Shown here: in pieces, positions 1,960-9,955 of the stretch | How the letters are laid out: every line of letters begins with the position of its first letter | Position numbering within the stretch: the first letter of the stretch is position 1 | Translations under genes and position numbers: made by a program | The notes under the pieces: model-generated | Told to the model about the DNA's origin: nothing | Database searches by the model: none | Seen by the model: only the letters and a program-made list of their open reading frames with translations | NCBI GenBank assembly: GCA_014239715.1 | Contig: JAAZYJ010000388.1 | Span: 1-11,801, forward strand | Direction of reading: 5' to 3' | DNA from: Flavobacteriales bacterium | GTDB lineage: Bacteria; Bacteroidota; Bacteroidia; Flavobacteriales; Parvicellaceae | Length of the DNA stretch: 11,801 bases

Positions 1960-3438
1960 ATGAGTATGAAACAGGTTTATTTATTATTGATAACAATGCA
2001 TACAGCACACTTGTTAGGACAGTCGACAGGTGCTGTTAGGATGGACAGCAGTTTGTCTCTGCTAACTTCAATATCGGGTAATATGTCACCAAAATCGGTT
2101 GTTCATTCTGGCAACGGACAGTTCTTTTCGCAGAATATGATGTACCGACATACAGTAACAGTGCATGATCGGGAGCACAATCTTATAGCAACCATTTCTG
2201 ACGCCATTACCCCTTCGGATTATGAATTGGACGGTAACCACAAATTAAGAGGCGCTCCTGTAGAATGTGCCTTTTCTCATGAAGGAAGATATGCATGGGT
2301 TTCTAATTATAATATGACAGGCAAAGGCTTTACAAATCCAGGCTGTGACGGGTGTAACGGAAAGAAATACGATAGCAGCTTCGTTTACAAAATAGACCTA
2401 CTGAATTATCAGATCACCAATGCGATACCCGTTGGGGCTGTGCCAAAATTTATAGCTATAGCTCCCAATGACTCCTTGTTGTTAGTTAGCAACTGGAGCA
2501 GTGGAAATGTAAGTCTTGTTGACCTGATTTCCGAAAAGGAAATAAAACAAATACGTGTTGGTGCCCACCCAAGAGGAATAGCGATAAGCCCGGACTCAAA
2601 AAAAGCTTATGTGGCAATTATGGGGTCCTCCAAAATTGTCGAGATCAACCTTAATGATTACTCCAAAACTGTTCTTTCCGATATTGGTAAAGGCCCCAGA
2701 CATCTGTGTCTCGGACCAAATGGCAAGTATTTATATGTAAGCATCAATGGAGAAGGGAAGATCGGCAAATATGATCTGACCAACAAATCACTTATAAAAT
2801 TGAAAACAGGAAGGATGCCGAGGACCATGGCGCTCAGCAAAAACGGAGAGTATTTGTATGTAGTCAACTATGGTGATCACAAGCTCACCAAGATAAGAAC
2901 CGCAGATTTCACAATACGTGACAATATCAAAACTGGCAGCAAACCAATAGGCGTTACTATAGACAATGAGCTAGGAAGGGTCTGGGTTTCTTGCTATTCT
3001 GGTAAGATAAATGTATTCCAAGATTCAATCCTCGCCCAAAGTAAAAGCTTGATGGACAAAACGCTATTAGCGCTAGGGAATCCGATAGATTTTATTCCTG
3101 AAATTACAACTGCAGCTGATACGCTTTCAAGTGAAACCAAGGCCGATGAAAATGTGCCAGGTTCAACAGCTGTAGCTGCTGACAGCGTTACGCCATCATC
3201 GAACAGCTCCAATGCTATTCAATACCATATCATAGCCGGAAGCTTCAGCAATATAGACAATGCCAAAAGAGAGAAGAACAGGTGGGATAAAAAAGAGTAT
3301 GAGGTTTCTATCATTCAGTCAGAAAAAGGTCACAACTTAATCAGTATTGCTTCTGGGTATAATAAGAATGAATTAAAACTGAAATTGGCTAATTATAAAA
3401 GCGAAAGCGACGTCAGCTTCTGGATATACAGTCAATAA
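1960..3438 (+). CDS. Exported YVTN/YncE-like beta-propeller with C-terminal SPOR domain
   Basis: 492 residues. The N-terminus is a signal peptide (Lys4, hydrophobic 5-19, probable cleavage LLG|Q after 20), with no lipobox Cys. From about 40 to 357 there are repeated blades of the YVTN/YncE type: recurring PxxIAIxPNxxxLxVSN-like strands, for example at 160-180, 203-221, 246-262, 287-304 and 328-346. The blade near 117-140 carries a CxxC (Cys129, Cys132). A low-complexity Ser/Thr/Ala linker at about 383-418 leads to a SPOR domain (about 421-491; YHIIAGSFSN start, SIASGY and FWIYSQ end). SPOR domains bind glycan strands stripped of stem peptides, so the propeller is probably held at periplasmic peptidoglycan, perhaps at the septum. 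Start: ATG at 1960, with Met3 (1966) an equal alternative. It follows the hydrolase by 9 bases. The propeller's ligand is unknown. Confidence 0.87.
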   Translation: MSMKQVYLLLITMHTAHLLGQSTGAVRMDSSLSLLTSISGNMSPKSVVHSGNGQFFSQNMMYRHTVTVHDREHNLIATISDAITPSDYELDGNHKLRGAPVECAFSHEGRYAWVSNYNMTGKGFTNPGCDGCNGKKYDSSFVYKIDLLNYQITNAIPVGAVPKFIAIAPNDSLLLVSNWSSGNVSLVDLISEKEIKQIRVGAHPRGIAISPDSKKAYVAIMGSSKIVEINLNDYSKTVLSDIGKGPRHLCLGPNGKYLYVSINGEGKIGKYDLTNKSLIKLKTGRMPRTMALSKNGEYLYVVNYGDHKLTKIRTADFTIRDNIKTGSKPIGVTIDNELGRVWVSCYSGKINVFQDSILAQSKSLMDKTLLALGNPIDFIPEITTAADTLSSETKADENVPGSTAVAADSVTPSSNSSNAIQYHIIAGSFSNIDNAKREKNRWDKKEYEVSIIQSEKGHNLISIASGYNKNELKLKLANYKSESDVSFWIYSQ

Positions 3439-3439
3439 C

Positions 3440-3835
3440 CTAGCGGAAATCAAACTCTTCAACCGCCTGTACATTGAAGTTCAAGTCGTCGAACAGGTCC
3501 TTAAACTCTAAACCTGCATCTTCCATGTCCAGATCATCTTCTTCGTAGATCCACTTGATCTGCACTTTTGTGTTTCCTGACTGATTGGCCTGCCTGTACT
3601 TTTTCATTAAGTCACGGAGGAACAGTGTGGTACTCGTGTTAAAATATTCCAAATGCAGCTCTACCAAACTCACATCCAACGGGGACGATAAATATTCTTC
3701 AACCTCCAGATACAACCCTCTATAAAACTCTTTTGAGTCCTCAGGAATAGATATCCCCTTGATTTTTAACACCCCGGTTAACGGTGAAAAATCGACCTCG
3801 GGAGTTTTCTCAGTTGCGTTAATTTGAAATAACAT
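3440..3835 (-). CDS. SiaC-family regulatory phosphoprotein (DUF1987)
   Basis: 131 residues, close to the normal length for the family. Family features seen: an opening TPEVDF followed by GVLKIKGISIPEDSKEFY, the central strand LHLEYFNTSTT, and the terminal KWIYEEDDLDMEDAGLEF segment. In Pseudomonas SiaC the Thr in the NTS motif is phosphorylated by the SiaB kinase and dephosphorylated by the PP2C phosphatase SiaA, and the unphosphorylated form activates the diguanylate cyclase SiaD. Here the equivalent is Asn66-Thr67-Ser68, so the switch residue is conserved. Cytoplasmic; no signal peptide. No siaA, siaB or siaD-like gene is in the window, so its partners are unknown. It lies 139 bases downstream of icmF on the same strand and ends one base from the end of the convergent propeller gene. 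Confidence 0.83.
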   Translation of the reverse strand: MLFQINATEKTPEVDFSPLTGVLKIKGISIPEDSKEFYRGLYLEVEEYLSSPLDVSLVELHLEYFNTSTTLFLRDLMKKYRQANQSGNTKVQIKWIYEEDDLDMEDAGLEFKDLFDDLNFNVQAVEEFDFR

Positions 3836-3974: not shown

Positions 3975-6900
3975 TCACATGTTTCGTCGATATTGACCCC
4001 CAACTTCAAACAATGCGTGAGTGATCTGTCCAAGCGAACAATACTTAGTCGCTTCCATTAATTCTTCAAATATATTTTTATTCTGAATTGCTGCAGTTTG
4101 CACACTTGCTATCGAATCCGTTGATTTCTTATCATTCACATTATGGATTGACTGAAGCATTTCGATCTGATAGTCTTTTTCGGTTGAAGTGGCACGAATC
4201 ACTTCCTGCGGAATAATAGTAGGAGATCCTTTTGAGCTGAGAAAAGTATTTACGCCGATAATCGGATATTCGCCAGTATGCTTCAACGTTTCATAATGCA
4301 ACGATTCTTCCTGGATCTTGCTTCTCTGATACATTGTTTCCATCGCTCCCAGCACTCCTCCCCTTTCTGTAATTCGATCAAACTCCGCCAAGACAGCTTC
4401 TTCCACTAGGTCTGTCAGCTCCTCAATGATAAAAGAACCTTGTGTAGGGTTTTCGTTCTTAGCCAACCCTAGTTCACGATTAATGATCAGCTGAATTGCC
4501 ATAGCACGACGCACTGACTCCTCCGTTGGAGTGGTAATCGCTTCATCATACGCATTGGTGTGTAATGAATTGCAGTTGTCATATATGGCATACAGTGCTT
4601 GCAGCGTAGTTCTGATATCGTTAAAATCAATTTCCTGAGCATGCAATGAGCGTCCGGATGTCTGTATATGGTATTTCAGCATTTGTGCTCGTTTGTCAGC
4701 ACCGTACTTTTTAGAAAGTGCCTTCGACCATATCCTTCTTGCTACCCTGCCAATAACAGCGTATTCCGGATCAATGCCATTGGAGAAAAAGAAAGATAAA
4801 TTGGGACCAAACTTGTTGATGTCCATTCCTCTGCTCAAATAGTATTCAACATATGTGAAACCATTGGCAAGTGTAAAAGCAAGCTGTGAAATGGGGTTAG
4901 AACCGGCTTCAGCAATGTGATATCCGGAAATAGAAACAGAATAAAAGTTCCTCACCTTCTTTGCAATAAAATACTCCTGTACGTCACCCATTAACCTTAA
5001 AGCAAACTCCGTCGAGAAAATACATGTATTCTGAGCCTGATCTTCTTTTAAGATATCTGCTTGCACCGTGCCTCGTACTGTTGAAAGCGTTTCTTCCTTA
5101 ATTTTTTGGTAGGTCTTTGCATCCAAAACCTGATCTCCTGTTAAACCGAGCAACATCAGTCCAAGACCGTCATTTCCTTCCGGTAATTCACCTTGATACG
5201 AAGGGCGCTCAGCACCGTTGTCGTCGTAAAGGCGTTTAAACGCTTTCTCAACATCCTTCTCCAAACCATTCTTCTGAATGTGTTTTTCACAATTCTGATC
5301 AATTGCTGCATTCATAAAAAACCCTAGCAGCATAGGTGCAGGTCCGTTAATGGTCATGCTGACTGAAGTTGCCTCATTAGTAAGATCAAATCCGGAGTAG
5401 AGTTTTTTTGCATCATTCAAACAACAGATAGATACTCCAGCATTACCGATCTTCCCATAAATATCAGGACGGATCGCAGGATCACTTCCATACAATGTAA
5501 CTGAATCAAATGCGGTCGACAGTCTCTTTGCGGGCATTCCCAGACTCACGTAATGAAATCGCTTATTCGTTCTCTCAGGGCCACCTTCACCAGCAAACAT
5601 TCTGGTTGGGTCCTCTCCTTCTCGTTTAAACGGAAAAAGTCCTGCAGTAAATGGGAAATCTCCAGGAGCGTTTTCCTGTAAAAGCCATCTCAGTCGATCA
5701 CCCCAGCCGCTATATCGAGGTAACGCAACTTTAGGTATTTGGAGCTGAGACAATGATGTTGTATGCGTTTCAATAGACAACTCTTTACCCCTTACTTCAA
5801 AGCTGTATAAAGGACTTTTGTATTTTTGAATTTTTGCATCCCAAGATTCCAGCAATATCCAGTTCTTCTGATCAAGTTCAAGTTTTGTTTTTTCAAACCG
5901 ATCTTCAAGTTCTGCGACCAAATGCTCTGCACCCTGACCCGTTGATTCTTTCAGGAGACCTATTGAACTATTCAAACCAAACAGCTGGTCCGCAACAATG
6001 CTCTGTTGCCGCACCCATTCATCATAACTCCTATTTGTCTCACTGATTTCAGATAAGTATCTCGTTCTCGCCGGAGGGATAACATAGACCTTTTCTGACA
6101 TTTCTTTCGTTATTTTGAATTCCGATGTAAGCTCTGAGTCTGTTTTCTCTACAATTTTATCCATCAGCCCCTTGTACAACGAATTCATACCCGGATCATT
6201 AAACTGTGAAGCTATCGTCCCAAAAACAGGGATATTCTCATCGGCTGTTTCCCATAAATTGTGATTGCGTTTATATTGCTTCTTAACGTCTCTAAGCGCA
6301 TCAGGTGCACCTCTCTTGTCAAACTTATTAAGAGCTACCATATCCGCAAAATCAAGCATGTCGATTTTTTCCAGTTGAGTAGCTGCTCCAAATTCAGGAG
6401 TCATGACATATAAAGAGACATCGGAATGATCCAGTATCTCCGTATCGGATTGACCAATACCTGAAGTCTCAAGTACAATAAGATCGAAACCTGCTAATTT
6501 CAGAATTTCCAAGGCGGTGGCAACATGTTTGGACAAAGCAAGATTAGATTGTCTTGTTGCGAGCGAACGCATGTAGACTCTATCGTTACTAATGGCGTTC
6601 ATCCTTATTCTATCCCCCAACAAAGCTCCTCCTGTCTTTCGCTTGGAAGGATCAACTGATACGATGGCCATAGTTCTATCCGAAAAGTCAGAAAGGAATC
6701 TTCTTACCAGCTCATCAACAAGTGAAGATTTACCAGCTCCTCCGGTTCCGGTTATTCCAAGAACAGGAGTATTCTTTTTTTTAGCAGATTTTGCTATTGA
6801 TTTAAGCTCTTTGCTGCATTCTTCCGGATAATTCTCAGCTGCTGAGATCATTCTTCCGATAGATCGGTAATCCGACTTTTCAAGTGCTAAAGCCTCTCCT

Positions 6901-7355
6901 TTAATTTCTTTTCCGGTCGGGAAATCGCATTTTTCCACAAGGTCATTGATCATACCTTGCAGACCCAGATCGCGACCATCATCAGGGTGATAGATGCGTG
7001 AGATCCCATAATCATGCAATTCCTTAATTTCACTTGGAAGAATCGTACCTCCCCCCCCACCAAAGATTTTAATGTGACCCGCATTCTTCTCATGCAAGAG
7101 ATCAAACATGTATTTAAAATACTCCATGTGGCCGCCCTGATAGGACGTTAAGGCAATGGCTTGAACATCTTCCTGAATGGCACAGTTCACAATCTCCTCT
7201 ACACTACGATCGTGCCCTAAATGAATTACTTCACAACCAGTTGACTGGATAATTCTTCTCATGATGTTTATCGCCGCATCATGACCATCGAAAAGTGAAG
7301 CAGCCGTCACTATTCTAATTTTGTGAGTAGGTATGTAAGGAGTAACTTGTTTCAT
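3975..7355 (-). CDS. icmF: Fused isobutyryl-CoA mutase IcmF (B12 domain, G-protein chaperone, mutase)
   Basis: 1126 residues from the ATG at 7355; an in-frame TTG at 7358 is a less likely start. It interconverts isobutyryl-CoA and n-butyryl-CoA using adenosylcobalamin. Domains in order: B12-binding at about 12-145 (FDGHD with Asp23 and the cobalt-ligand His25, TSYQGG at 70-75, five-Gly loop at 99-103); MeaB/MeaI-type GTPase chaperone at about 190-420 (Walker [10 protein letters not shown] at 203-211, [13 protein letters not shown] at 343-346); linker at about 420-540; TIM-barrel mutase at about 545-1126 (SGYHIAEAG with His813). Phe574 stands where methylmalonyl-CoA mutase has the substrate Tyr, and Gln775 where it has Arg, the pair known to mark isobutyryl-CoA enzymes. 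Organisms of this group often have it annotated simply as methylmalonyl-CoA mutase. A longer insert is present at about 682-760. It is followed by the SiaC-like gene. The two parts of the fusion make separate chaperone genes unnecessary. Confidence 0.94.
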
Positions 7356-7379
7356 CAACTTTTATATACGAAATGGCAG

Positions 7380-7570: not shown

Positions 7571-9955
7571 ATGACCCGTATTTTATTCCCCCTCTTTATC
7601 GCCATTTTCTTTTATGGTAATTTATGGTCTCAATGCACTTCTGGTTATGCCGAGCTTATCATTGAGATCGTTCCTGACAGTTATCCTTCAGAAATATCTT
7701 GGGACGTTTCAACTGCCGGAACAATTGTGGCCTCAGGTAACTCGGTCGGAGATACGATCTGCATAGACACAGCGCAATGCACGATCTTCACAATTTACGA
7801 TTCTTATGGGGATGGTATATGCTGTGGCTACGGAATTGGTTACTACAATTTGTTTGTGAACAGTGTACTCGAAGCTACAGGTGGTGAATATGACAGTTTT
7901 GAAAGCACCAGTTTCTTCTGTCCACCCGGAAGCTCCTGCGAAAATCCGTTGGTTATCACTGAGGGCACGTATTCGGCAGCCGTACTGCCAGAAACCTGGT
8001 ACGAATGGTCACCGGATTCCGCAGGAATATATGAGATCAGCACTTGCCTTGGTGCTTCGTGCGACACGAGAATCTGGGTCTACGATCTATGTGCAGGACT
8101 TGTATTTGACAGTGGCAATACAGGAACAGTATTCTACAATGATAACAACCCAACTTGCGGATCACAGGCTTATCTGACCGGCATGTTCGATCCTGCCGAG
8201 ACTTACTATATTCGTATAGGACAAGTAGGTGCATCATGCTCGTCGGCTCCAATTAGCTGGTCCCTGAGTTTTTTCTCTGCAATATCGGGCTGTATGGATC
8301 CTTCTGCATGCAATTATAATCCATTAGCAACAACAGGTGACACGTGTTATTATGCCGGTGACAGCCTCTGCCCTGATGGGCCTGACCTATGGCTACTGGA
8401 AGATGTTCTCAGAAGCACCATGTTTGTTGACAATTTGAACAACACTGACCCGTGTACCATCAATGAAGGCTGCCTCAGAGGCTATGGGGATCGGGAAATT
8501 ATTCGGTTCACTACGCACATTAAGAACATCGGTAATTCTGACTTTTACATCGGAACACCATCCTCAAATCCCGGACAGTTTGTATGGGATAACTGTCATA
8601 GTCACAATCATTATGTTGGTTATGCAGAGTACATCTTATACGACGAAGACAACTTCTCAACTCCCATTGGGTTCAAGAATGGATTTTGTGTAATGGATCT
8701 GGAATGCGACAGCGGTGGAGCAATGACCTACGGCTGTGGAAATATGGGGATCTCGTACGACTGTGGAGATTACTATGGCTATTATCTCGATTGCCAGTGG
8801 ATTGACATCACGGAAGTGGATACGGGTCGTTATGTTCTTGTGACCAGAGTGAACTGGGACCAGTCTCCGGATGCACTGGGACAATACGAAACAAGCTATG
8901 AAAACAATTGGGGACAGGCATGCTTTCATTTGGAAAGAGACCCCATTACAGGTGCTCCCTCCATAACACTTGACACAGCTTGCCCTCCTTATCTCGATTG
9001 TGCAGGAATTCCCTACGGTTCAACTTTCGTGGATTGCAATGGTGTATGCAACGGAACTGCTTTGATGGGCGACATCGATAATGACCTGGATCAGACAAGT
9101 GCAGACGCAATTCAATACGTAGATGATATTATCGGTAACAACATAAGCCCAACCAATTGCAACGACCTGAATGCTGATGGCGCTATAAGTGTATATGATG
9201 CCTCATTGATAAACAGCTGTTATTTATTCGGCAACAGCCACGCTCATAGTGGCGGAGGGTCTCACGACCACTGTAATTTGCCGTTGAACGTTCACAATCT
9301 GTATGACACGGCATATCTTAGTATCATTGGTTACAATATAAGTGCCGGCTATATCGATATCGGCATCAAAAATCCCAGCTCGAAAGTGGTAGCCTACGAA
9401 TTCACAATGGAAGGAATTACCATTGGCAGCGTTGATAATCTGCAGCCCGCTGCGCAATATCCCATTTCGCCCAGCTATTCCTTAGGGGGAACAAAAGTAA
9501 TCGGGATCTCATATGTGGATTCTGTTATTGATAAATCCAACGTTTACCAACCATTGTGTCGAATAAACATATTCAATGTGACCAGTTCAATGATATGTAT
9601 TGATGCTATTGTTGACGTTGTTGACGAGTATTATCACACTGTCGAAAACGAGATTGAAGGCTCTTGTATCTTTGTTACAGGACTAACAGAAAACCCAGAA
9701 TTTGCCGCAATGAACATCCAACCAAATCCGGCTTCAAATGCTGCAACCATCAAGCTGAATTCCACATTCGAGCTTAATGGAAACCTCGCTGTCTATGACT
9801 TTTTAGGAAGGCGCATTTATGGAAAAGCATTGAATGCTAATCAACAGGCAACAGAAAAAATAAATGTTACTAATTGGAACTCAGGCGTCTATCATGTCGT
9901 ATTTACTTCTAAGGAAGGTATTATCCAGCGGCCACTTCATGTTGTAAAAGAGTAA
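7571..9955 (+). CDS. T9SS-secreted multidomain lysyl oxidase
   Basis: 794 residues. Signal peptide with cleavage near LWS|Q (after 20). Then: a beta domain at 22-117 with IYDSYGDGICCGYG; a PPC-like beta-sandwich at about 123-236; a Cys motif GCMDPSACNYNP at 240-251; the lysyl oxidase domain at about 269-456; a Cys linker at 477-493 (DCNGVCNG); a dockerin-like pair of calcium loops (Asp501-Asp512, Asp532-Asp543); a His cluster at 557-567; a cohesin-like beta domain at about 575-702; and a T9SS type A sorting domain at about 711-794 (NIQPNPASN ... SGVYHVVF). Lysyl oxidase deaminates peptidyl lysine to allysine, releasing H2O2 and ammonia and allowing cross-links. Compared by eye with human LOX: copper ligands His343, His345, His347; cofactor Lys369 and Tyr402; Cys pairs 295/301, 342/389, 373/379, 398/408; and DCQWIDIT. 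All are present. The protein probably acts outside the cell or on its surface. The substrate is unknown. The gene is divergent from icmF and 91 bases before the PIN-PhoH gene. Confidence 0.9.
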   Translation: MTRILFPLFIAIFFYGNLWSQCTSGYAELIIEIVPDSYPSEISWDVSTAGTIVASGNSVGDTICIDTAQCTIFTIYDSYGDGICCGYGIGYYNLFVNSVLEATGGEYDSFESTSFFCPPGSSCENPLVITEGTYSAAVLPETWYEWSPDSAGIYEISTCLGASCDTRIWVYDLCAGLVFDSGNTGTVFYNDNNPTCGSQAYLTGMFDPAETYYIRIGQVGASCSSAPISWSLSFFSAISGCMDPSACNYNPLATTGDTCYYAGDSLCPDGPDLWLLEDVLRSTMFVDNLNNTDPCTINEGCLRGYGDREIIRFTTHIKNIGNSDFYIGTPSSNPGQFVWDNCHSHNHYVGYAEYILYDEDNFSTPIGFKNGFCVMDLECDSGGAMTYGCGNMGISYDCGDYYGYYLDCQWIDITEVDTGRYVLVTRVNWDQSPDALGQYETSYENNWGQACFHLERDPITGAPSITLDTACPPYLDCAGIPYGSTFVDCNGVCNGTALMGDIDNDLDQTSADAIQYVDDIIGNNISPTNCNDLNADGAISVYDASLINSCYLFGNSHAHSGGGSHDHCNLPLNVHNLYDTAYLSIIGYNISAGYIDIGIKNPSSKVVAYEFTMEGITIGSVDNLQPAAQYPISPSYSLGGTKVIGISYVDSVIDKSNVYQPLCRINIFNVTSSMICIDAIVDVVDEYYHTVENEIEGSCIFVTGLTENPEFAAMNIQPNPASNAATIKLNSTFELNGNLAVYDFLGRRIYGKALNANQQATEKINVTNWNSGVYHVVFTSKEGIIQRPLHVVKE

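Follow-up and report, generated by a model that had tools for sequence, protein, structure and literature searches.

Lysyl oxidase (LOX) is the copper enzyme by which animals cross-link collagen and elastin. The gene studied here (positions 7571–9955, forward strand; 794 amino acids plus stop) encodes a bacterial protein with a LOX domain and lies in an 11,801-nucleotide stretch of a Flavobacteriales bacterium (GenBank assembly GCA_014239715.1, contig JAAZYJ010000388.1), analysed at its full length and called the window below. Prokaryotic members of the family have been described: in the available part of the survey by Grau-Bove et al. 2015 (PMC4448552), five bacterial clades, one of them Bacteroidetes, are recorded as having LOX, and all but three of the prokaryotic proteins consist of a LOX domain alone, with or without a signal peptide or membrane segment. 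According to the accessible part of Pestov et al. 2019 (PMC6452851), the refolded LOX of the archaeon Haloterrigena turkmenica was active and sensitive to β-aminopropionitrile, its native function being left open. The available parts of both papers agree with the preliminary description of the window, which took bacterial LOX to be already known, with mostly unknown substrates.

The window protein shares PF01186 with the 2015 prokaryotic set, from which its multidomain clade is set apart by what is available of that paper's description. The Haloterrigena enzyme, likened here from its partial description rather than by sequence, is also of PF01186 type but archaeal; by analogy, it establishes function for a prokaryotic LOX but not for the window's own. 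The catalytic domain of human LOXL2 (structure 5ze3) is ~29–32% identical to the window domain; unlike LOXL2, the window protein gave no SRCR match and has a bacterial sorting domain and a dockerin-like plus cohesin-fold module. The LOX proteins of Gemmatimonadota (L107, P0121–P0240) have PF01186, the HxHxH motif and a Lys four residues before a Cys in common with it; most of the 120 listed are ~300 amino acids long, and P0230 has residues other than Cys at several LOXL2 Cys positions. No LOX bearing a type IX secretion system (T9SS) or dockerin domain was found in the literature searched, which covers few subscription papers. The LOX type is known in bacteria; its build with a sorting domain and docking-type modules is a new variant, whose function we infer.

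The lysyl oxidase domain and its distribution

The preliminary description had claimed a complete LOX domain at 8375–8938, and comparison with the family's hidden Markov model confirmed that this is a genuine lysyl oxidase domain: residues 305–449 matched PF01186 with 101.6 bits (curated cutoff 20.4), as did all 55 aligned relatives. Delimited by PF01186 and the 5ze3 alignment, the catalytic domain comprises residues 263–470 (8357–8980, +). The copper site of HxHxH type, His343-Ser-His345-Asn-His347 (8597–8611, +), is in register with LOXL2 626/628/630, and the precursors of the lysyl tyrosylquinone cofactor, Lys369 (8675–8677, +) and Tyr402 (8774–8776, +), are in register with LOXL2 653/689; the three His were identical, and Lys369 and Tyr402 kept, in 205 of 205 domains. 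The proposed comparison with human LOXL2 also turned out favourably, 5ze3 aligning over residues 247–481 of the structure model, which predicts a LOX fold. Of the ten cysteines conserved in the catalytic domain of human LOX proteins, those inside the aligned LOXL2 stretch match; it stops before the last two, for which Cys451 and Cys471 are candidates only. A large distance between Lys369 and Tyr402, which had been named as a refuting observation, would not refute LOX, since 16.6 Å separate the amine of Lys653 from Tyr689 in the crystal structure of the human precursor (PMC9180022, available part).

In a sample of 299 genomes belonging to the same order as the nearest genome, PF01186 was found in 136; 23 of these match only its second half with low scores, leaving 113 genomes, sorted by hand, with a strong LOX. 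A phylum-wide sample of 395 genomes had PF01186 in four, two of them divergent. The nearest named records are metagenome assemblies of Flavobacteriales and Crocinitomicaceae, the closest match (L001) being 84% identical over its best segment. A search of the protein database gave 1182 relatives at E ≤ 1e-3, and NCBI calls a few of the 120 listed 'lysyl oxidase family protein'. The window domain has a mean identity of 57% to 51 clade members (chosen at <70% mutual identity), against 32% to LOXL2, 29% (mean) to Gemmatimonadota LOX and 24% to divergent Bacteroidota LOX. Of 200 bootstrap trees, 76% recover the window's clade as a single group, and LOXL2 groups with it (support 97/87), as the sole animal sequence, on a branch flagged by the program as very long and beside two other bacterial groups only; we draw no origin or direction of transfer from the tree. 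The 23 genomes matching the second half of PF01186 (L108–L130, same order) carry a second, divergent LOX-like class, with frames mostly of 693–788 amino acids and with HGHNHV and KIGFC in the sequences displayed.

Domain layout and the docking-type module

The enzyme had been described as secreted, and the chain with all catalytic residues ends in a T9SS type A C-terminal sorting domain (residues 712–794; 9704–9952, +), which matched PF18962 (E = 1.2e-10, 42 bits, cutoff 27) and TIGR04183 (E = 5.3e-10, 39.1 bits, cutoff 23). At the other end, a putative signal peptide, read by eye (residues 1–21; 7571–7633, +; helix 5–17 in the model), precedes an N-terminal beta domain with the motif IYDSYGDGICC (residues 22–116; 7634–7918, +), which has strands in the structure model and found no match in a Pfam scan of the protein, and a PPC-fold domain (residues 118–234; 7922–8272, +). 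Two linkers flank the oxidase: GCMDPSACNYNPLAT (residues 240–262; 8288–8356, +), with C241, C247, N248, P251, A253 and C259, and a Cys-rich one, DCAGxPxGxxxxDCNGVCNG (residues 471–495; 8981–9055, +), with C471, C477, C489 and C493, all of these residues being fully kept in 55 sequences.

Behind the oxidase follow a dockerin-like pair of calcium-type loops (residues 496–555; 9056–9235, +) and a predicted cohesin-fold domain (residues 577–706; 9299–9688, +). A profile built from 58 relatives matched dockerin 1daq (E = 2e-4), and Dockerin_1 was found at E ≤ 0.1 in 27 of the 58 slices; the window's own slice matches no family. In the structure model, residues 577–706 take up a cohesin fold; we call this part 'cohesin-fold' and not cohesin because no Pfam cohesin family was matched among the 58 slices at E ≤ 0.1. 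The predicted TM-score was 0.43 for the full model and 0.89 for the dockerin–cohesin slice, a slight sign that both parts may be packed against each other. Cellulosomal cohesins and dockerins share the fold and the dockerin profile match with this module; unlike them, the two parts stand here in one chain behind an oxidase, and their binding is putative. Between them lies a partly conserved His-rich linker, HAHSGGGSHDHC (residues 557–568; 9239–9274, +), with His565 in 36 and Cys568 in all 58 relatives; a second metal site is conceivable.

The module accompanies the oxidase throughout 70 neighbourhoods (the window, L001, L003 and L037–L103), which were picked by hand, seven for having two LOX genes, and come from related genomes with flanks of unequal length. 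They hold 76 LOX proteins with a domain of >150 residues, of which 75 carry the module, and beside the 76th (L075) it sits in the next frame. A T9SS-like C-terminal domain was seen in 51 of the 76; of the other 25, judged by eye, 20 have one more dockerin-like repeat as their C-terminus and five look cut or broken. A search of 12 whole genomes (E ≤ 0.001) gave 14 module matches: 13 fall in LOX frames, and the remaining one belongs to a paralogue without LOX that adjoins the LOX gene of G063 (L064, 7075–8757); no unrelated protein with the module was seen in these genomes, where distant cohesins or dockerins could escape the profile.

The paralogue (560 amino acids, forward strand) stands directly before the LOX gene, retains the N-terminal domains, the module and the T9SS domain, and is a possible partner or substrate. 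A LOX variant of 2085 amino acids (L056, 3574–9831, −) has PKD and HYR domains and putative copper-binding MopE motifs (PF11617, E = 3.6e-90).

Proposed cross-linking and its alternatives

We consider it probable that the protein is an extracellular LOX of animal type, which turns peptidyl lysine into aldehydes that go on to form cross-links, its binding modules placing the enzyme. The T9SS would carry the chain out of the cell, the C-terminal domain being cut off during surface attachment or release. Copper held at His343, His345 and His347 would lead to oxidation of Tyr402 and its joining to Lys369 as lysyl tyrosylquinone, and the quinone would convert primary amines to aldehydes (allysine), with H2O2 and ammonia freed. 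The likeliest target would be peptidyl lysine of surface or matrix proteins, with the PPC-fold domain and the dockerin-like/cohesin-fold module as the parts that may position the enzyme.

Several results weigh against this account, and with it against the earlier suggestion that allysine cross-links make a new matrix chemistry. No substrate gene was found beside LOX in the window, and none of its neighbours there is a candidate for a matrix protein. A collagen-like substrate is not supported for the strong LOX: collagen-like genes (PF01391; 162 of the 299 genomes) are rarer with it (47 of 113 genomes, against 95 of 163 LOX-free ones; Fisher p = 0.007, uncorrected for genome kinship). In the window's own sequence, the dockerin signal is weak. 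The archaeal LOX, the one prokaryotic enzyme assayed in the papers available (PMC6452851, available part), is unspecific and oxidises many small amines.

Glycine, taurine and other small amines are among the substrates given there, and they lend some weight to a nutritional amine oxidase, which would free extracellular ammonia from amines or peptides and feed its products into amino-acid and acyl-CoA breakdown. Near LOX in the 70 loci were the gene of the fused isobutyryl-CoA mutase/GTPase IcmF (28), an S46 peptidase (24) and, named by eye, threonine-aldolase-like (18) and branched-chain-aminotransferase-like (16) genes. We hold this reading possible, though rather unlikely: the window has only IcmF of these genes, the loci come from related genomes in which they may be merely old neighbours, and a protein target is suggested both by the binding modules and by the resemblance of the Cys set to that of the animal matrix enzymes.

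Since each of the 14 module matches in the 12 genomes falls either in a LOX gene (13) or in the LOX-less paralogue adjoining one (1), LOX molecules might clasp themselves or each other into cell-surface arrays and cross-link the cell's own matrix; we regard this as unlikely, and if true, such arrays would be a bacterial counterpart to animal matrix cross-linking. A weapon or shield against competitors is very improbable: H2O2 is released by LOX chemistry, and aminoglycosides and polymyxin, amine-bearing antibiotics, are oxidised by the archaeal LOX (PMC6452851, available part), but Pfam and NCBIfam scans recognised no defence or toxin gene in the window (PADLOC was not run) and nothing else points to it. 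That an inactive LOX fold serves solely as adhesin or scaffold, as the several binding-type domains and the LOX-less paralogue (L064, 7075–8757) might suggest, is hardly credible with all five catalytic residues present in 205 of 205 domains.

If surface proteins are indeed cross-linked as we propose, bacteria would share with animals the use of allysine chemistry in their matrix. The available parts of the 2015 and 2019 papers (PMC4448552, PMC6452851) leave the role of prokaryotic LOX open, and this clade offers a defined test system, valuable for its animal active site and the animal Cys positions matched within the aligned stretch, its strong matches in 113 of 299 genomes of the order, its surface-sorting domain and its docking-type modules.

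Other substrate leads were followed. Lysine avoidance as self-protection was rejected: LOX proteins are poor in lysine (mean 0.86%) but do not differ in this from the secreted proteins that their loci encode (0.89%; Wilcoxon p = 0.75 over 24 pairs). In the divergent-LOX genomes, PF01391 was found in 20 of 23, with a mean of 9.9 hits against 3.0 in LOX-free genomes, kinship being uncorrected here as well. In 21 of the 70 loci, LOX has a lamin-tail/CotH gene cluster nearby; presence or absence is uninformative on CotH as a partner because CotH occurs in 281 of the 299 genomes. In L045 (6916–9858 and 9855–12908), 4 bases are shared by the LOX gene and a lamin-tail/CotH-kinase gene whose product bears a type IX secretion domain.

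Gene neighbourhood

IcmF (3975–7358, −; NF045497, 1759.5 bits, cutoff 1500) is the divergent neighbour of LOX in the window, 212 bases away. It is the immediate neighbour in 11 of the 28 loci that have it near LOX; the pair is divergent in the window, L001 and L003, points in the same direction in L037–L043 and L089, and is more distant elsewhere. IcmF, a metabolic enzyme, is present in 280 of the 299 genomes. Among the 43 strong-LOX genomes for which its position was listed, it lies at most 12 kb from LOX in 19 and shares the LOX contig at a distance of 340 kb in one more; separation in the other 23 is unproven, many assemblies being fragmented, and in G249, which belongs to these 23, the LOX contig (L046) bears a fragment of IcmF. 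We read the proximity as retained old gene order and not as partnership; possibly it is a metabolic hint. Besides IcmF, no window gene belongs to any cluster recurring in at least five of the 70 loci. A mobile-element search gave no phage match and one weak plasmid match covering 42% of the query, and promoter-like (10, 7.3 expected, sd 2.7) and terminator-like sites (1, 1.6 expected) gave no signal.

In the seven genomes of L037–L043, two LOX genes flank IcmF; the longer LOX ends in a dockerin-like repeat and the other, where its end is present, in a T9SS-like domain. Elsewhere in the window, a gene at 3440–3835 (−) encodes a SiaC-family regulatory phosphoprotein (PF09345, E = 2.1e-32), scoring 65.2 against the NCBIfam biofilm SiaC model, below its cutoff of 150, and a gene at 1960–3438 (+) encodes a beta-propeller protein of YVTN/lactonase type, the end of which matches SPOR weakly.
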